Of a DNA stretch of 49,245 nucleotides, positions 8,249-42,183 are shown piece after piece (position 1 is the stretch's first letter; each line of letters starts with the position of its first letter). The translations under genes were made by a program, and so were the position numbers. A model generated the notes under the pieces. The model was not told the origin of the DNA. It saw nothing but the letters and a program-made list of their open reading frames with translations, and did not search any database. This DNA comes from an uncultured Elusimicrobia bacterium. GTDB taxonomy: Bacteria > Elusimicrobiota > Endomicrobiia > Endomicrobiales > Endomicrobiaceae. The stretch lies in assembly GCA_947168325.1 (NCBI GenBank), contig CAMVLN010000002.1:1-49245 (forward strand), written 5' to 3'.

Positions 8249-10078
8249 ATGTGTGGAATAGTTGGATATATTGGCAAAAAAAATGCTGTTGATGTAATAT
8301 ACTGTGGACTTGAAAAACTTGAATATAGAGGGTATGATTCTGCAGGTATAGCTGTTATTGATAATAAAAAAATTCAAAGAAGAAGAAGTATAGGAAAACT
8401 TAAAAATCTTCAAGAAAATATAAAAACAAATTCTATTTACGGCAACATTGGTATAGGTCATACTAGATGGGCAACACATGGAAAACCTAGCCAAGAAAAT
8501 GCTCATCCTCATACTGATTGTAATGAAAAAATAGTTGTGGTTCATAACGGTATAATTGAAAATTATATAGAACTAAAAAAATCTTTACAAAACGAAGGGC
8601 ACAAATTTTCTTCACAAACAGATACAGAAGTTATTGCACATTTAATTGAAAAATATTATAAAAACGATTTGTTAGTTGCAGTGAAATTGGCACTTAAAGA
8701 TATTAGAGGTTCTTATGCTATTTGTGCAATATGTAAAGAAGATAAATCAAGAATTGTTGTTGCAAGAAAAGATGCTCCTTTAGTTATAGGTGTTGCTTTG
8801 GGGGAAAAATACATAGCTTCAGATGTGTCTGCATTACTTCAATATACAAAAGATGTAATTTTTCTTGAAAATGGTGATGTAGCAGAAATTAAAGAAGATT
8901 CTATAAAAATATTTGATATAGATGATAATGTAGTTGATAGAAAATCTCAAAAAATATTGTGGAATGCGATACAAGCAGAAAAATGTGGTTATAAACATTT
9001 TATGCTAAAAGAAATTTTTGAACAAGCTCAAACCACACAGGATACTTTTAGAGGAAGAATTTCTGATGAATTAAACAAAATAATATTAGAGTCTATAAAG
9101 CTTACTAAAAAAGAAATTTTAAGTATATCAAGGATTTGTATAGTAGCATGTGGAACATCTTATCATGCTGGGCTTATATCAAAATTTCTGTTTGAAAAAT
9201 TTACAGAAATTCCTACAGAAGTAAATATAGCTTCCGAATTTAGATATTGTAGCCCTGTAATTGATGATAAAGTGCTAACAATATTTATTTCTCAATCTGG
9301 AGAAACGGCAGATACTCTTGCAGCATTAAGACTTGCAAGGGGGAAAAAATCAAAAACAATTGCTATATGTAATGTTGTTGGCTCAAGCATAAGCAGAGAA
9401 GCTAATTACACTTTATACACACATTGTGGTCCTGAAATTGGTGTAGCATCAACAAAAGCTTTTACAGGTCAATTGACAGCACTATATTTATTAGTAATGT
9501 ATATAGCATCAATTAAAGAAGTTATTTCAAACGAACAATTAGCAAATTTCATAAGCGGGCTAAGAGATATACCTAACAAAATTTCTGAAACATTGAAATT
9601 ATCTTCACAAATTGAAGAAATAGCAAAATTATTTCAAAACACAAAACAATTTATATATTTAGCTAGAAATATTAATTATCCTATAGCACTTGAAGGGGCA
9701 TTAAAATTAAAAGAAATATCTTATATTTATGCTGAAGGTTATCCTGCAGGAGAAATGAAACATGGTCCTATTGCATTGATAGATGAAACTATGCCAGTAA
9801 TGGTAATAGCAACAAATAGTAAAGTTTATGAAAAAGTATTAAGCAATATTGAAGAAGCTAAAGCAAGAGGTGCAAAAATAATTGCAATAGCAAATAAAAG
9901 TAATAACGATATAGTAAAAAATTCAGATTATCAAATTTTTGTTCCTGAAGTTGATGATTTCTTTTCACCATTGATTAATGTTATACCGTTACAATTTTTT
10001 GCATATTTTGTATCAGTAATGAAAGGTTGCGATGTTGATCAACCAAGAAATTTAGCTAAATCTGTCACTGTAGAATAA
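8249..10078 (+). CDS. glmS: Glutamine--fructose-6-phosphate aminotransferase (isomerizing)
   Basis: MCGIVGYIG N-terminal nucleophile Cys, GHTRWATHG, SIS domains ISQSGETADT, C-terminal NLAKSVTVE. Confidence 0.97.
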   Translation: MCGIVGYIGKKNAVDVIYCGLEKLEYRGYDSAGIAVIDNKKIQRRRSIGKLKNLQENIKTNSIYGNIGIGHTRWATHGKPSQENAHPHTDCNEKIVVVHNGIIENYIELKKSLQNEGHKFSSQTDTEVIAHLIEKYYKNDLLVAVKLALKDIRGSYAICAICKEDKSRIVVARKDAPLVIGVALGEKYIASDVSALLQYTKDVIFLENGDVAEIKEDSIKIFDIDDNVVDRKSQKILWNAIQAEKCGYKHFMLKEIFEQAQTTQDTFRGRISDELNKIILESIKLTKKEILSISRICIVACGTSYHAGLISKFLFEKFTEIPTEVNIASEFRYCSPVIDDKVLTIFISQSGETADTLAALRLARGKKSKTIAICNVVGSSISREANYTLYTHCGPEIGVASTKAFTGQLTALYLLVMYIASIKEVISNEQLANFISGLRDIPNKISETLKLSSQIEEIAKLFQNTKQFIYLARNINYPIALEGALKLKEISYIYAEGYPAGEMKHGPIALIDETMPVMVIATNSKVYEKVLSNIEEAKARGAKIIAIANKSNNDIVKNSDYQIFVPEVDDFFSPLINVIPLQFFAYFVSVMKGCDVDQPRNLAKSVTVE

Positions 10079-20995: not shown

Positions 20996-23272
20996 ATGAC
21001 AAATAAATTAAAAATTCAAATTAAAGATAATAAAATCTATTCCTTCATTAGAGATACCTGGTTAATTTTTACCCCTGAAGAACAAGTTAGGCAGCAATAT
21101 GTTGCAAAACTTGTCAATTTTTATGGTTATTCATTAGAGCAAATGGCAGAAGAACTTAAAGTTAATAATTCTAAAAGAGGGCAGGGAAAAGCAAGAGCAG
21201 ATATTGTAATTTGGAAATCAAAAAAAGAAAAAATAGATGAAAAATCGGCATTTATTGTTGTTGAATGTAAAGCAGAAAAAATAACAGTAAAAAAAGAAGA
21301 TTATTATCAAGGAGCAAACTATGCAGCTTGGGCTGGTGCAAGTTTTTTTGTAACAACAAATGAAAAAGAAACAAAGTTTTTTCGTGTAGATAAAGATTCT
21401 ATGCCTAAAGATTTGAATGAAATTATAGATATACCAAAAGCATCAATTATAAACAATCAAAAAGAGATTAATAAAATACTATCTCAAACAAAAGCTTTTT
21501 CAAGAGATGAATTTGCTAAACTACTTCAAAAATGTCACAACATAATAAGAAATAATGATAAGTTGTCTCCTGAAGCTGCTTTTGATGAAATAAGCAAAAT
21601 TTTATTTATAAAAATAAGATATGAACGAAATCCTGACGAAGATGTTATTTTTTCTTTAGACAAATTTCAAAGAGATGAAAAGAATTTTGAAAAAAATATA
21701 AAAAAAAATTTACCTTTAGAATATCAAATGCCATATATGCAGTATTTGTTTAAGGCAACAAAAGATGAATTTAGTGAAGATAAACTTTTTGATTTTTATG
21801 ATACAATAAAAATTAAGCAATATAGTTTTGAACAAATAGTAAAAGAACTAGAAAAATATAATCTATCTGCAACATCAGATGATGTTAAAGGTATTGCTTT
21901 TGAACAGTTTTTAGGAACAACATTTAGGGGCGAATTAGGACAATTTTTTACACCAAGAACAATAGTAGATTTTATGGTAAAAATTCTTGATACTCAAGAA
22001 GGAGAAATAATTTGTGACCCTTGTTGTGGAAGTGGCGGTTTTTTAATAGGAGCTTTCGACTATATTAGAAGTAAAATAGAGTTAGATATTGAAAATTGTA
22101 AAAGAGAATTTAAAACTAAACTATTTGATAAAAACTATGAAAATCTTTCAGAAAAAAAACAATTAGAAGTTAATAATCAATATAATAATATCTTAAAAAA
22201 ATTAAATTCAGAAATTAATGTTCCAAACAAAGCTTATTCAAAACAAACTGAAGCTGAAAAAAACAGAAGAATTTCAAAATTATCTTCAAACTGTATTTAT
22301 GGAACAGATGCTAATCCAAGAATGGCAAGAACTTCAAAAATGAATATGATAATGCATGGTGATGGACATGGTGGAGTTCATCATCACGATGGTTTAATAA
22401 ATGTGGATGGAATATTTGAAGAAAGATTTGATGTTATTTTAACTAATCCTCCATTTGGTTCAAGAATAGATAAAGATTATGAACTTAGCGATACTGACCG
22501 TTTTAATGACGAAGCAAAAATAAAGAAAAATGAAGAGCTTTACGGATACAAATATACTGAACAAATAAAAGAATTAAATTCTGCTATCAAAAGAAAGCAA
22601 AAAGTTATTGATAGATTTGAGCTTGGCAAAATAAGTAATTTAACAGAAGTTTTGTTTATGGAAAGATGTTTAAAGCTTCTTAAGAAAGGTGGAAGAATGG
22701 GGATAGTTCTTCCTGAAGGAGTATTAAATAATTCTAACTTACAGAAAGTTAGAGATTTTTTTGAGGCTAAAGCAAAAATATTATTAATTACTTCAATACC
22801 TCAAGATGTTTTTATTGCTTCAGGTGCAACAATAAAACCAAGTTTACTATTTTTTAAAAAATTTACACAAGAGGAAGAACTACAATATAAAAAAGCTAGA
22901 GAGACAGCAGAAATAGAAGTAAATAAAAAATATGCAGATGAAATTGAGCAAATAGAAATAAAATTTAAAAAAGATAAAAAAGCTAAAAATAAAGCATTAA
23001 AAGAAATAAAAATAAAACAAGAAAAAGACATTAAAGAAAAAATTAAAGAATTGTTTAATTATGAAATTCCTATTGCTCAAGTTAAAAAAGCAGGTATAAC
23101 CACAACTGGTGCAAAGTGTGAAAATGAATTGATTATTGTTGCAGAAGAATTTAAAAAGCATAGGGATTCAAATAATTTGTGGACTGTAAATACTCCTAAA
23201 ATAATTTATAATTTAATTGAAAATTTAATAATAAGAAAAACGAATGAAAAAGAAGAGGAAATAGATGAATAA
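20996..23272 (+). CDS. Type I/IIB-like R-M subunit: HSDR_N-type PD-(D/E)xK nuclease fused to N6-adenine DNA methylase
   Basis: N-terminal ARADIVIW...FIVVECKAE nuclease motif; DPCCGSGGFLIGAF (SAM motif I) and LTNPPFGSRID (catalytic NPPF). Confidence 0.88.
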   Translation: MTNKLKIQIKDNKIYSFIRDTWLIFTPEEQVRQQYVAKLVNFYGYSLEQMAEELKVNNSKRGQGKARADIVIWKSKKEKIDEKSAFIVVECKAEKITVKKEDYYQGANYAAWAGASFFVTTNEKETKFFRVDKDSMPKDLNEIIDIPKASIINNQKEINKILSQTKAFSRDEFAKLLQKCHNIIRNNDKLSPEAAFDEISKILFIKIRYERNPDEDVIFSLDKFQRDEKNFEKNIKKNLPLEYQMPYMQYLFKATKDEFSEDKLFDFYDTIKIKQYSFEQIVKELEKYNLSATSDDVKGIAFEQFLGTTFRGELGQFFTPRTIVDFMVKILDTQEGEIICDPCCGSGGFLIGAFDYIRSKIELDIENCKREFKTKLFDKNYENLSEKKQLEVNNQYNNILKKLNSEINVPNKAYSKQTEAEKNRRISKLSSNCIYGTDANPRMARTSKMNMIMHGDGHGGVHHHDGLINVDGIFEERFDVILTNPPFGSRIDKDYELSDTDRFNDEAKIKKNEELYGYKYTEQIKELNSAIKRKQKVIDRFELGKISNLTEVLFMERCLKLLKKGGRMGIVLPEGVLNNSNLQKVRDFFEAKAKILLITSIPQDVFIASGATIKPSLLFFKKFTQEEELQYKKARETAEIEVNKKYADEIEQIEIKFKKDKKAKNKALKEIKIKQEKDIKEKIKELFNYEIPIAQVKKAGITTTGAKCENELIIVAEEFKKHRDSNNLWTVNTPKIIYNLIENLIIRKTNEKEEEIDE

Positions 23273-24629
23273 TATAGATTTTTCTTATTTGAAATTTATT
23301 GGTTTTTCAAATCTTCTTCTTTGGGATTTTAAAAGATTTTCATCGGCTAATTTAAAATCAAGATATAATATTGTTAAATTATCAAGCTATATTAAAGAAG
23401 AGAATATTAAAATTAAACCTTTTGAAAACCCAGAACAACAATATGAAATTTTAGGAGTTAATAACAACATAGGTTTATTTGATGCTTATGTGGAATTAGG
23501 CAAAAATATTAATCAACCATATAAAATTGTAAAAAACGGTTTTCTGGCATATAATCCATATCGTGTAAATGTTGGTTCTGTTGGATTAAAAACAGATAAT
23601 CAAAAATATAAATATATAAGTCCTGCTTATGTCGTTTTTAGTTGTAAAGATGGGTTATTGCCAGAATTTTTATACATACTTTTTAAAACTAATAGATTTA
23701 ATGAATTAATAAGAGAAAATACAACAGGTTCCGTTAGACAGTCTTTATCTTTTTCATCAATGGGGAATATTGATATTCCTTTACCATCAATTAAAGAACA
23801 ACAAAGAATAATAGAAAAATATAATAGTAGAATTAAACTTGCAGAAAAACAAGAAAAAGAAGTTTTTGATTTAGAAAATGCTATTGAGAACTTTTTGTTT
23901 CTTAAATTGAATATTCCTAAAGATTTTCAAAAAACTGAAGCAGAAAAATTTTCAAAAATAAAATTTATTGATATTAAATCACTCTCTAGATGGGGAGTTG
24001 AATTTTTGCTAAATCAAAAAAAAGACTCTATTTTATTAAAATCACAAAATATACCTATGAAAAAATTAGGTGCTATTGTAGATATTGATCCAAAAAGTGA
24101 TTTTTCTATATTAGATAAAAAATTAGAAATGTCGTTTATTCCTATGCATTGTGTATCTGATGAGTATGGCGAAATTATAAATTTAGAAGAAGGAATTAAT
24201 GAAAAATCAAAAGGGTATACAAAGTTTCAAGATAACGATTTAATATGGGCAAAAATAACACCTTGTATGCAAAATGGTAAATCTGCAATATTAAGGGGGT
24301 TAAAAAATGGTTATGGATATGGCTCTACAGAATTTTTTGTAATAAGAAATTCCAATCCAAATGTTTTATTGGATTATGTTTATCATATTTTAAGAACCAA
24401 GTTGGTTAGACAAAATGCAGTTAAATTTTTTACAGGGTCATCTGGCCAACAACGAGTTCCAAAAAGCTATTTGCAGAATTTAGAAATTCCTTTGCCAAAT
24501 ATAAAAAAACAAAAATATATATCAGATGAAATTTATAAAATAAAAAATAATATTAAGCAATTAAAAAAAGAAGCTGAACAAAATAAATTGTTAGCTCAAA
24601 CAGAATTTGAAAATGAATTGTTTTTATGA
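23265..24629 (+). CDS. hsdS: Restriction-modification specificity subunit (HsdS, two target-recognition domains)
   Basis: Two TRD halves each ending in conserved helix IPLPSIKEQQRIIEKYNSRI / IPLPNIKKQKYISDEIYKI; overlaps methylase stop. Confidence 0.9.
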   Translation: MNNIDFSYLKFIGFSNLLLWDFKRFSSANLKSRYNIVKLSSYIKEENIKIKPFENPEQQYEILGVNNNIGLFDAYVELGKNINQPYKIVKNGFLAYNPYRVNVGSVGLKTDNQKYKYISPAYVVFSCKDGLLPEFLYILFKTNRFNELIRENTTGSVRQSLSFSSMGNIDIPLPSIKEQQRIIEKYNSRIKLAEKQEKEVFDLENAIENFLFLKLNIPKDFQKTEAEKFSKIKFIDIKSLSRWGVEFLLNQKKDSILLKSQNIPMKKLGAIVDIDPKSDFSILDKKLEMSFIPMHCVSDEYGEIINLEEGINEKSKGYTKFQDNDLIWAKITPCMQNGKSAILRGLKNGYGYGSTEFFVIRNSNPNVLLDYVYHILRTKLVRQNAVKFFTGSSGQQRVPKSYLQNLEIPLPNIKKQKYISDEIYKIKNNIKQLKKEAEQNKLLAQTEFENELFL

Positions 24630-40339: not shown

Positions 40340-40420
40340 ATAAATGATTGCACAATGTTGCAAAAAAAAAATTTTTTTTCTAGAATTAAAAAGATTGAAT
40401 TAAAATATTAAGAGGTATTT

Positions 40421-40528
40421 GTGAATAAAAAAATAAATAAAAAAAGTAAAGTCTGGATAAAACCAAAACTTATGAAGATAAAAACAGGGTTGGATTCGGC
40501 AATAACAGCGACTGATATGTCATATTAG
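40421..40528 (+). CDS. Candidate PqqA-like RiPP precursor peptide (35 aa, GTG start)
   Basis: agaggt SD 5 nt before GTG; MNKKINKKSKVWIKPKLMKIKTGLDSAITATDMSY*; W-x-K-P-x5-(I/L)-(K/R)-x-G-L-(D/E) as in PqqA; followed 44 nt later by radical SAM gene. Not in the ORF track because of length. Confidence 0.65.
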   Translation: MNKKINKKSKVWIKPKLMKIKTGLDSAITATDMSY

Positions 40529-40572
40529 TAAATAACAGTTTAATGTAAACTATTTAAAAATGGGGGAATTTT

Positions 40573-42183
40573 ATGAATAATACGGAGTTAGCAAAAGGAT
40601 TAATAAATAGTAATAAATTAAAAGAAGCAGAAAGCATATTATTGGGCTTGGAAGATAAGTATTCTGTGTTTGAATTGGCAAGGTTAAGACAAATACAAGG
40701 AAAAGATATAGAAGCTGAAAAATTATTTTTGAAAACACTTCAAATATCTCCAGAAATAAAAGGGCAAATAGAAAGTGATACAAACTTAGAGTTAGCAAGA
40801 ATCTATGCAAGGCAGAGAAAAGTAGATTTAGCTACTCAGATGTATTTGAAGGTAACAGATAGGATAAATAGTGAAAGGAACATATATAAAGAATTAGGAA
40901 ATTTATATATGCAAGTAAGGGATTATCCGAAAGCTAGAGATAGTTATAAAAGAGCATTATCAATTTTTCCAAAAGATATAGATGTAGCACTAAATTTGGG
41001 AATAGCATATAGAATGTTAGGGCAAGATGAAAAAGCAGAGGAATTGTTTAGTGCTTTGTTAAAAATAAAAGAAATAAGACAAGATAAGTTTATGTATAAC
41101 AAAGTATTAAATGAATATGAGATATTGTTAAAGAGAGAATATTTGGAGTCTCATCCTAGCCAAATAATGAATACAATAACAAACAGATGTAATATAGGAT
41201 GCAGATCATGTGATATATGGAAAGATAGCAATTGGCAACAGAATGAAAAAAGAATGAAAGAAGTAGTGGATTTGTTCCCATATTTGGAGCAAGCATCATG
41301 GTTAGGAGGAGAAGCTTTTTTGTACAAAGGTTTTGAAGATATATTAGAAGAAGGGTTTAAATATAAAAATATGGAGCAAACGATACTAACAAATGGGTTG
41401 TTGTTGACAAAAAATAGTTTAGAGAAGTTGTTAAAAGAGAAAGTTGTATTGTGGATATCGATAGATGCAGGTAAAAAAGAGACCTATGAGTATTTAAGAA
41501 GAGGTGCAAGTTGGAATAAACTTTGTAAGAATTTAGAGATGATAAAAGAAGCAAAAGAGTCAAGAAAGAGCAGTGGAAACAAAGTAAATATGAAGACTTT
41601 GTACAATGCAGTAATAAGTAAGAGTAATTATACCGAGATGATGGAAATGTTAGAAATGGCGAAGAAATATTCTTTTGATAGAATAAGATTTCAACCAATA
41701 TTTGGGACAGGAGAAGAAAATATATTTTTAAACAAAGATTTGAAAGCAATCAAATATATATATGATTTATTAGATTTGTTAAAAGCAAGAGCAGAAGAAT
41801 ACGAAATAGAAGTAATATTTGACTCTTTATTTCCAACAAAAGAGCATCCGATATATAGAGATTTAAATATGAAGTATGTGGAAAATAATAATTATTCGTT
41901 GAGAAAGACAGCAAGAAAAGTAGTAAGTTGTATGTCTCCATGGAAGAAAGTGGTAATAGATAGTAAAGGGACGATGAGAATGTGTATAAATAGTAACGAT
42001 TATTTAGGCGACAGTGAAAAAGAAACGATAAAAAATTTTTGGAACAATGAAGGAATGCAAACATACAGAAGATGTTTTGGCAAGCTAATGGGATGTTCAG
42101 GAAAATATTACAAGATGAGTTTTAGTGGGCCTGAAGATGTTCTTGATGATGTTGATACTGATATTGATGTAGCAGAATGTTAG
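40573..42183 (+). CDS. TPR-repeat radical SAM protein with SPASM-like C-terminal domain
   Basis: N-terminal TPR-like repeats (EKLFLKTLQISPE, DSYKRALSIFPKDIDVALNLGIAYRMLG); CNIGCRSCDIW CxxxCxxC; C-terminal SCMSPWKKVVIDSKGTMRMC...CFGKLMGC; SD gggggaa. Confidence 0.9.
   Translation: MNNTELAKGLINSNKLKEAESILLGLEDKYSVFELARLRQIQGKDIEAEKLFLKTLQISPEIKGQIESDTNLELARIYARQRKVDLATQMYLKVTDRINSERNIYKELGNLYMQVRDYPKARDSYKRALSIFPKDIDVALNLGIAYRMLGQDEKAEELFSALLKIKEIRQDKFMYNKVLNEYEILLKREYLESHPSQIMNTITNRCNIGCRSCDIWKDSNWQQNEKRMKEVVDLFPYLEQASWLGGEAFLYKGFEDILEEGFKYKNMEQTILTNGLLLTKNSLEKLLKEKVVLWISIDAGKKETYEYLRRGASWNKLCKNLEMIKEAKESRKSSGNKVNMKTLYNAVISKSNYTEMMEMLEMAKKYSFDRIRFQPIFGTGEENIFLNKDLKAIKYIYDLLDLLKARAEEYEIEVIFDSLFPTKEHPIYRDLNMKYVENNNYSLRKTARKVVSCMSPWKKVVIDSKGTMRMCINSNDYLGDSEKETIKNFWNNEGMQTYRRCFGKLMGCSGKYYKMSFSGPEDVLDDVDTDIDVAEC

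Follow-up and report, generated by a model that had tools for sequence, protein, structure and literature searches.

The 35-aa open reading frame (ORF) at 40421-40528 of the window, the whole 49,245-nucleotide stretch of DNA analysed here, is probably the one precursor from which an RRE-dependent, radical SAM-modified peptide is made, the genes for precursor, RRE and TPR/radical SAM/SPASM enzymes being scattered in the genome. The first-pass annotation had proposed a radical SAM-modified peptide system made of this ORF and the gene that follows it. The peptide, its leader type and the SPASM enzyme stand, whereas the peptide and enzyme genes as a conserved cis unit do not.

The peptide gene and its conservation

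The window is contig C2 of G000, an assembly of 175 contigs that totals 1.5 Mb. The product of the ORF is MNKKINKKSKVWIKPKLMKIKTGLDSAITATDMSY, and its features are the following:

40411..40416, + strand: AGAGGT Shine-Dalgarno-like site of the peptide gene (from the sequence)
40421..40528, + strand: 35-aa precursor-like peptide gene that starts with GTG and stops with TAG (orthologues and purifying selection)
40454..40471, + strand: leader motif W-I-K-P-K-L ([WY]xxPx[LI]) of the RRE-recognition type (orthologue alignment; lasso B1 motif)
40487..40525, + strand: putative core GLDSAITATDMSY (alignment; boundary inferred)

The GTG-start ORF, its agaggt site, the 44 nt that separate it from a TPR-radical SAM gene and the gggggaa that precedes the ATG of that gene at 40573 had all been annotated beforehand; the sequence bears out each of them, and Pfam the domains of the enzyme.

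Genome sets of 78 members of the family and 342 of the phylum were searched for the peptide. A single-sequence search of 61 relatives recovered six orthologues (E 6e-13 to 2e-6), and a profile matched 7 of the 78 family genomes at E 6e-18 or better, with exactly one copy in each. These carriers are the window genome (G000), G001, G009, G016, G020, G026 and G029, which leaves 71 non-carriers in the family. Over the 342 phylum genomes the profile gave nothing below E 0.004 beyond the seven carriers, the remaining matches being weak and unconvincing. The orthologues are 32-35 aa long, with identities to the window peptide of 82% (G009), 66% (G020 and G029), 62% (G016), 60% (G026) and 55% (G001), and AGAGGT also precedes the gene in G009, G020 and G029. 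No Pfam or NCBIfam family matches the peptide at E<=1.

In the alignment of the seven orthologues, residues W, K, P and K of the leader are invariant, as are D, I, A, D, M and the C-terminal Y of the putative core, giving the overall pattern K-x-W-x-K-P-K-x2-K-I-K-x3-D-x2-I-x-A-x-D-M-x-Y. Over the 25 C-terminal codons, the ratio of nonsynonymous to synonymous differences per site is 0.20 when summed over all orthologue pairs, and G016 and G026 differ by 8 synonymous and 0 nonsynonymous changes. The peptide gene is therefore real and kept by purifying selection, which supports the earlier proposal of a genuine leader peptide and answers clearly its question about selection at the codon level. 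The profile orthologues together with this selection rule out a chance ORF.

A discrete PqqD-type RRE co-distributed with the peptide

The window genome encodes, unlinked to the peptide, a discrete 86-aa PqqD-family protein (G000:C1:35204-35464) that begins MKYxIxKxVLWQExDGE and scores above the PqqD Pfam cut-off. Orthologues are found in six of the seven carriers (all except G009) and in 0 of the 71 other family genomes; their scores are 1e-46 to 1e-48, against 1e-16 for the next match among the 342 phylum genomes. The earlier suggestion that the N-terminal TPR of the enzyme replaces a PqqD-type RRE is thus unnecessary, since within the family such an RRE occurs only in peptide carriers. As for G009, the neighbouring PPIase gene is absent there too, as it is in G018, while it is present in 15 of 15 other genomes tested; the missing RRE of G009 is hence best read as an assembly gap.

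Co-occurrence of peptide and RRE across the 78 family genomes has a Fisher p of 2.7e-8, a value that overstates the independence of the events. In this regard, the non-carriers of the genus form one clade when placed on a valS tree, which indicates one joint loss rather than many independent ones. The gene order in G001 is lexA-RRE-PPIase, and in G003, a member of that genus without the peptide, the lexA-PPIase synteny and a promoter-like stretch are kept while the RRE coding sequence is cleanly deleted.

Among solved structures, the RRE sequence is nearest to TbiB1 (5e-8). Its AlphaFold model (pLDDT 91) superimposes on TbiB1-TbiA leader complexes with a TM of 0.92, followed by another lasso B1-leader complex and then by PqqD. 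Lasso B1 RREs require the Tyr, Pro and Leu of a YxxPxL leader (PMC10368454), and the W-x-K-P-K-[LI] of the peptide has the same spacing. The family and fold of the RRE, its co-occurrence with the peptide and the joint loss of both are established.

The small number of independent gain or loss events behind the co-occurrence counts against our interpretation. Together with a core that is conserved like the leader and with the stand-alone transcription of the gene in relatives (see below), it would also fit an ORF whose product is a small conserved protein of different function and undergoes no modification, the co-occurrence reflecting only shared retention in gene-rich lineages. The exact co-distribution with a discrete RRE, the presence of a leader motif of the kind that such RREs read and the precise deletion of the RRE in a non-carrier make this a distinctly unlikely account.

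Genomic context of the peptide and the adjacent enzyme

The adjacency of peptide and enzyme genes is seen in G000 only. In five carriers the peptide gene lies directly 5' of acpS, and in G009 it lies near accA; a strong hairpin follows it in the five acpS-linked carriers (z -2.9 to -4.7). In relatives, the peptide gene is a stand-alone transcription unit with its own terminator, usually before acpS. Most genomes of the same genus have valS-rph where the window has valS-peptide-radical SAM gene, so that the window junction is a rearrangement. No hairpin or terminator separates the peptide and enzyme genes in the window, which makes their co-transcription plausible in this genome only.

The enzyme gene has these features:

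40573..42183, + strand: TPR/radical SAM/SPASM protein, 536 aa (Pfam; orthologues; AlphaFold model with mean pLDDT 81.9)
40579..41127, + strand: N-terminal TPR-type helical region, about residues 3-185, without an RRE domain (Pfam TPR; helices in the model)
41173..41553, + strand: radical SAM core, residues 201-327, with CNIGCRSC (PF04055, E 9.8e-16)
41929..42069, + strand: SPASM/twitch region, residues 453-499 (PF13186, E 3.7e-6)

The CxxxCxxC motif and the Radical_SAM and SPASM domains place the protein among radical SAM/SPASM enzymes, as had been annotated; Cys 206, 210 and 213 are invariant among orthologues, and the best Pfam TPR match has an E of 4.7e-16. In the model, a TPR superhelix precedes the radical SAM/SPASM fold, which is nearest to the peptide maturases SuiB, SkfB, TigE and CteB, with SuiB and SkfB best; BlsE, a small-molecule enzyme, also matches. 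The enzyme reaches no NCBIfam equivalog cut-off, that of PqqE included. Since it lacks an RRE of its own, a separate one would fit, and it is our first candidate for the maturase.

Scanning the genome contigs with the window enzyme gave one locus only. Orthologues are found in G009 (84% identity), in G020, G026 and G016 (42-43%) and in G038 (38%), all other members of the enzyme's family being paralogues below about 38%. The first-pass annotation had looked to homologous radical SAM loci for a conserved small ORF upstream, and this expectation failed: none of the orthologues, including the 84%-identical one in RUG658/G009 and those in the arrays, is preceded by such an ORF, and in relatives the peptide sits elsewhere. 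A cis-conserved pair is thereby rejected. The first-pass model of a self-contained pair, in which the leader would be bound by the TPR of the enzyme and the core altered by that enzyme without any RRE, would suit the 44-nt gap, the uninterrupted window junction, the common binding of peptides by TPR repeats and the lack of an RRE in the enzyme. The restriction of the adjacency to one genome and the co-occurrence of a dedicated RRE with the peptide argue against it, and we consider it unlikely.

Several observations on the enzyme weigh against the preferred reading, a scattered RRE-dependent pathway. Carriers G001 and G029, whose assemblies are both fragmented, yielded no orthologue, and G038 has an orthologue but not the window peptide. 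The C-terminal cysteine spacing of the window enzyme is atypical, its orthologues having DxCxxEC, and in the 84% orthologue of G009 the frame changes by one base close to codon 45 (L041 about 8290-8340, G009:C56), which is either a sequencing error or a real frameshift. Decay of the window enzyme is unsupported, its dN/dS between G000 and G009 being 0.11 against 0.08 for valS in the same pair. In favour of the preferred reading, few array genes were recovered in these two sister genomes, yet the peptide and the enzyme orthologue are both retained (dN/dS about 0.11 each).

Radical SAM arrays and a second conserved locus

All seven carriers have genes of TPR/radical SAM arrays, and arrays are found at the following loci:

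L037, L038 and L125 (G016:C23, about 231.7-273.5 kb): 28 radical SAM genes in a row
L135, L035 and L036 (G026:C38): 27 radical SAM genes in a row
L039 and L122 (G020:C2): 19 radical SAM genes, the array being cut by the ends of the contig

The array marker is strong in 7 of 7 carriers, and among the 71 other family genomes it is strong in G018 only and weak in G006 (Fisher 3e-9 against the peptide, again an overstatement of independence). The arrays run on a single strand and are mostly of TPR/SPASM types. On one side they are flanked by lptF/lptG in G016 and G026, and on the other by a long, repetitive, beta-helix-like ORF that runs off the contig and has no Pfam match. The array of G038 lies near an ABC polysaccharide exporter. 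Given these lptF/lptG and exporter neighbours, the arrays may act on something else. A bolder extension of our interpretation, in which one 32-35-aa peptide is the substrate of the whole TPR/radical SAM battery (up to 28 genes per array) and yields a heavily modified cofactor- or signal-like product from parts encoded apart, seems to us improbable.

A second conserved locus is present in every carrier (L184-L189 and L191; G000:C68, G001:C16, G029:C35, G020:C12, G016:C21, G026:C105, G009:C170). It contains an STM4011-like radical SAM gene and a B12 radical SAM gene akin to RiPP C-methyltransferases, to which the better assembled carriers add a Wzm/Wzt-like exporter, a twitch radical SAM gene, a GT2 and an HprK-related kinase-like gene. 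The best score of the B12 enzyme is with TIGR03975, a RiPP maturation C-methyltransferase; the kinase-like gene has weak HprK_rel_A similarity in one orthologue (E 9e-4) and none in another, and the GT2 is weakly MftF-like.

With its RiPP-like B12 methyltransferase, this locus is a serious rival maturase: the peptide could be bound by the RRE and matured here, the TPR/radical SAM arrays and the window enzyme acting on another substrate. The presence of its radical SAM genes in all carriers and the similarities just listed agree with such a role, as does the lasso cluster in which a kinase is paired with a discrete RRE (PMC10368454). However, G018 has the locus too, although the searches gave no peptide and no RRE there (that genome is 78% complete and its PPIase region is missing), radical SAM genes of the same type are present in G038, and the peptide is never adjacent to the locus in any genome. 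We give this reading a minor, though real, chance of being correct.

Comparison with known systems

The system resembles that of PQQ (PqqA/PqqD/PqqE) in its tiny precursor with WxKP near the start, its discrete PqqD-type RRE, its SPASM radical SAM enzyme and a precursor that is conserved throughout. It differs in that no pqqBC genes lie nearby, the parts are unlinked, the enzymes have an N-terminal TPR, and all matches to PqqA and PqqE models stayed under the cut-offs, the other radical SAM enzymes scoring far below that of PqqE. The PqqA likeness noted in the first-pass annotation is real, only 6 of 5000 shuffles reaching the score against the PqqA quoted there, but it is confined to the leader and is explained by the same kind of RRE-read leader. 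The E-x3-Y cross-link pair of PqqA is absent, the aligned positions being D and T/S in all seven orthologues. With no PqqA profile match, no E-x3-Y and no PqqE-type enzyme, the peptide is not a PqqA, and PQQ, as had been anticipated, is not the expected product.

Mycofactocin (MftA/MftB/MftC) offers another parallel, with a short precursor that ends in Tyr, a discrete RRE, a SPASM enzyme and a conserved core. The same elements are found here, although there is no equivalog-level match to Mft models and the genes are unlinked. SuiB, SkfB, CteB and TigE, whose solved structures come nearest in fold to the window enzyme, have a domain like an RRE at the N-terminus, whereas the window enzyme has a TPR at that end.

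The likeness to lasso B1 proteins is closer for the RRE, with a TM of about 0.9 to TbiB1 and a [Y/W]xxPx[L/I] leader in the peptide. A lasso pathway with a TbiB1-like B1 protein could account for these features and for the resemblance to lasso PqqD-family chaperones. Nevertheless, no B2 peptidase (PF13471) was found over the cut-off in 11 genomes, all seven carriers included, the RRE falls below the lasso equivalog cut-offs, the short conserved core is too short for a lasso peptide and lacks the usual boundary residue, and radical SAM genes are present instead, which renders a lasso product very improbable. In this regard, only about 4,000 of the almost 8,000 proteins best matched by the discrete lasso-RRE model of RRE-Finder co-occur with lasso enzymes (PMC7470986). 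The RRE described here is like the orphans of that survey in being of lasso type without lasso enzymes, and unlike them in that co-distribution names a likely, unlinked precursor partner.

Short ORFs whose leader is of this type, for example MEKKNNEKKKMYKKPLLKKY... and MSKKKRYIKPKMKTQ..., occur with other cores elsewhere in the phylum, at loci that have a PqqD-like protein close by, as in G038 (MEKKNNEKKKMYKKPLLKKYKLGNKLSVSPTMFLTAC and MKQQKKFKKPYKKPNIVSEKIIETAALACGKC...) and G206 (MSKKKRYIKPKMKTQKVFETAALACGKC...). In G038:C26, where the peptide differs from that of the window but its leader is of the same kind, L170:4858-13491 looks like a clustered RiPP locus: a GT2-PqqD fusion is followed by a 37-aa ORF whose leader is of the RRE type, two B12-type radical SAM genes, a discrete PqqD, a protein without a Pfam match that looks S24/S26-peptidase-like by eye, and one more radical SAM gene. 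PqqD/radical SAM/S26-like cassettes are found at L171:6027-8135 (G038:C3) and L178:44-1752 (G206:C23), and their short ORFs have a common ETAALACGKC core of the cysteine-containing RiPP type. Within the window itself, Type I restriction-modification-like genes occupy 20996-24629, with an HsdR_N/N6-methylase fusion and a specificity subunit. The literature on Elusimicrobia with radical SAM or RiPP contained nothing evidently relevant by title and abstract.

Proposed model and implications

Taken together, two traits of an RRE-dependent RiPP are found here, namely a short, selected precursor with an RRE-type leader and an RRE in the same genome; clustering is not, the peptide, RRE and radical SAM genes lying on separate contigs or far apart. 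In the model that we favour, the WxKPxL leader would dock on the RRE as an additional beta strand, and the RRE would present the core of roughly 13 residues (LDSxISASDMxY type) to a TPR/SPASM radical SAM enzyme. This enzyme would abstract hydrogen from core residues and introduce cross-links or another C-centred change. Four parts of the model are ones that we infer: leader binding, which enzyme serves as maturase, the chemistry that it performs and the product that results. Because the core is as strongly conserved as the leader, one conserved product that acts like a cofactor or signal, in the manner of PQQ or mycofactocin, fits better than a variable antimicrobial.

The mining of RiPPs assumes that precursor, RRE and enzyme adjoin, and a cluster-based search would miss a set such as this one, in which three scattered parts are tied by co-distribution, a common recognition motif and joint loss. 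It is this scattering that sets the system apart from known RRE-dependent radical SAM peptide systems. Unlinked precursors also provide a testable explanation for some orphan lasso-type RREs (PMC7470986). If the model is correct, a little-studied gut phylum would have a peptide pathway of the radical SAM kind, the product of which may be conserved and cofactor-like.
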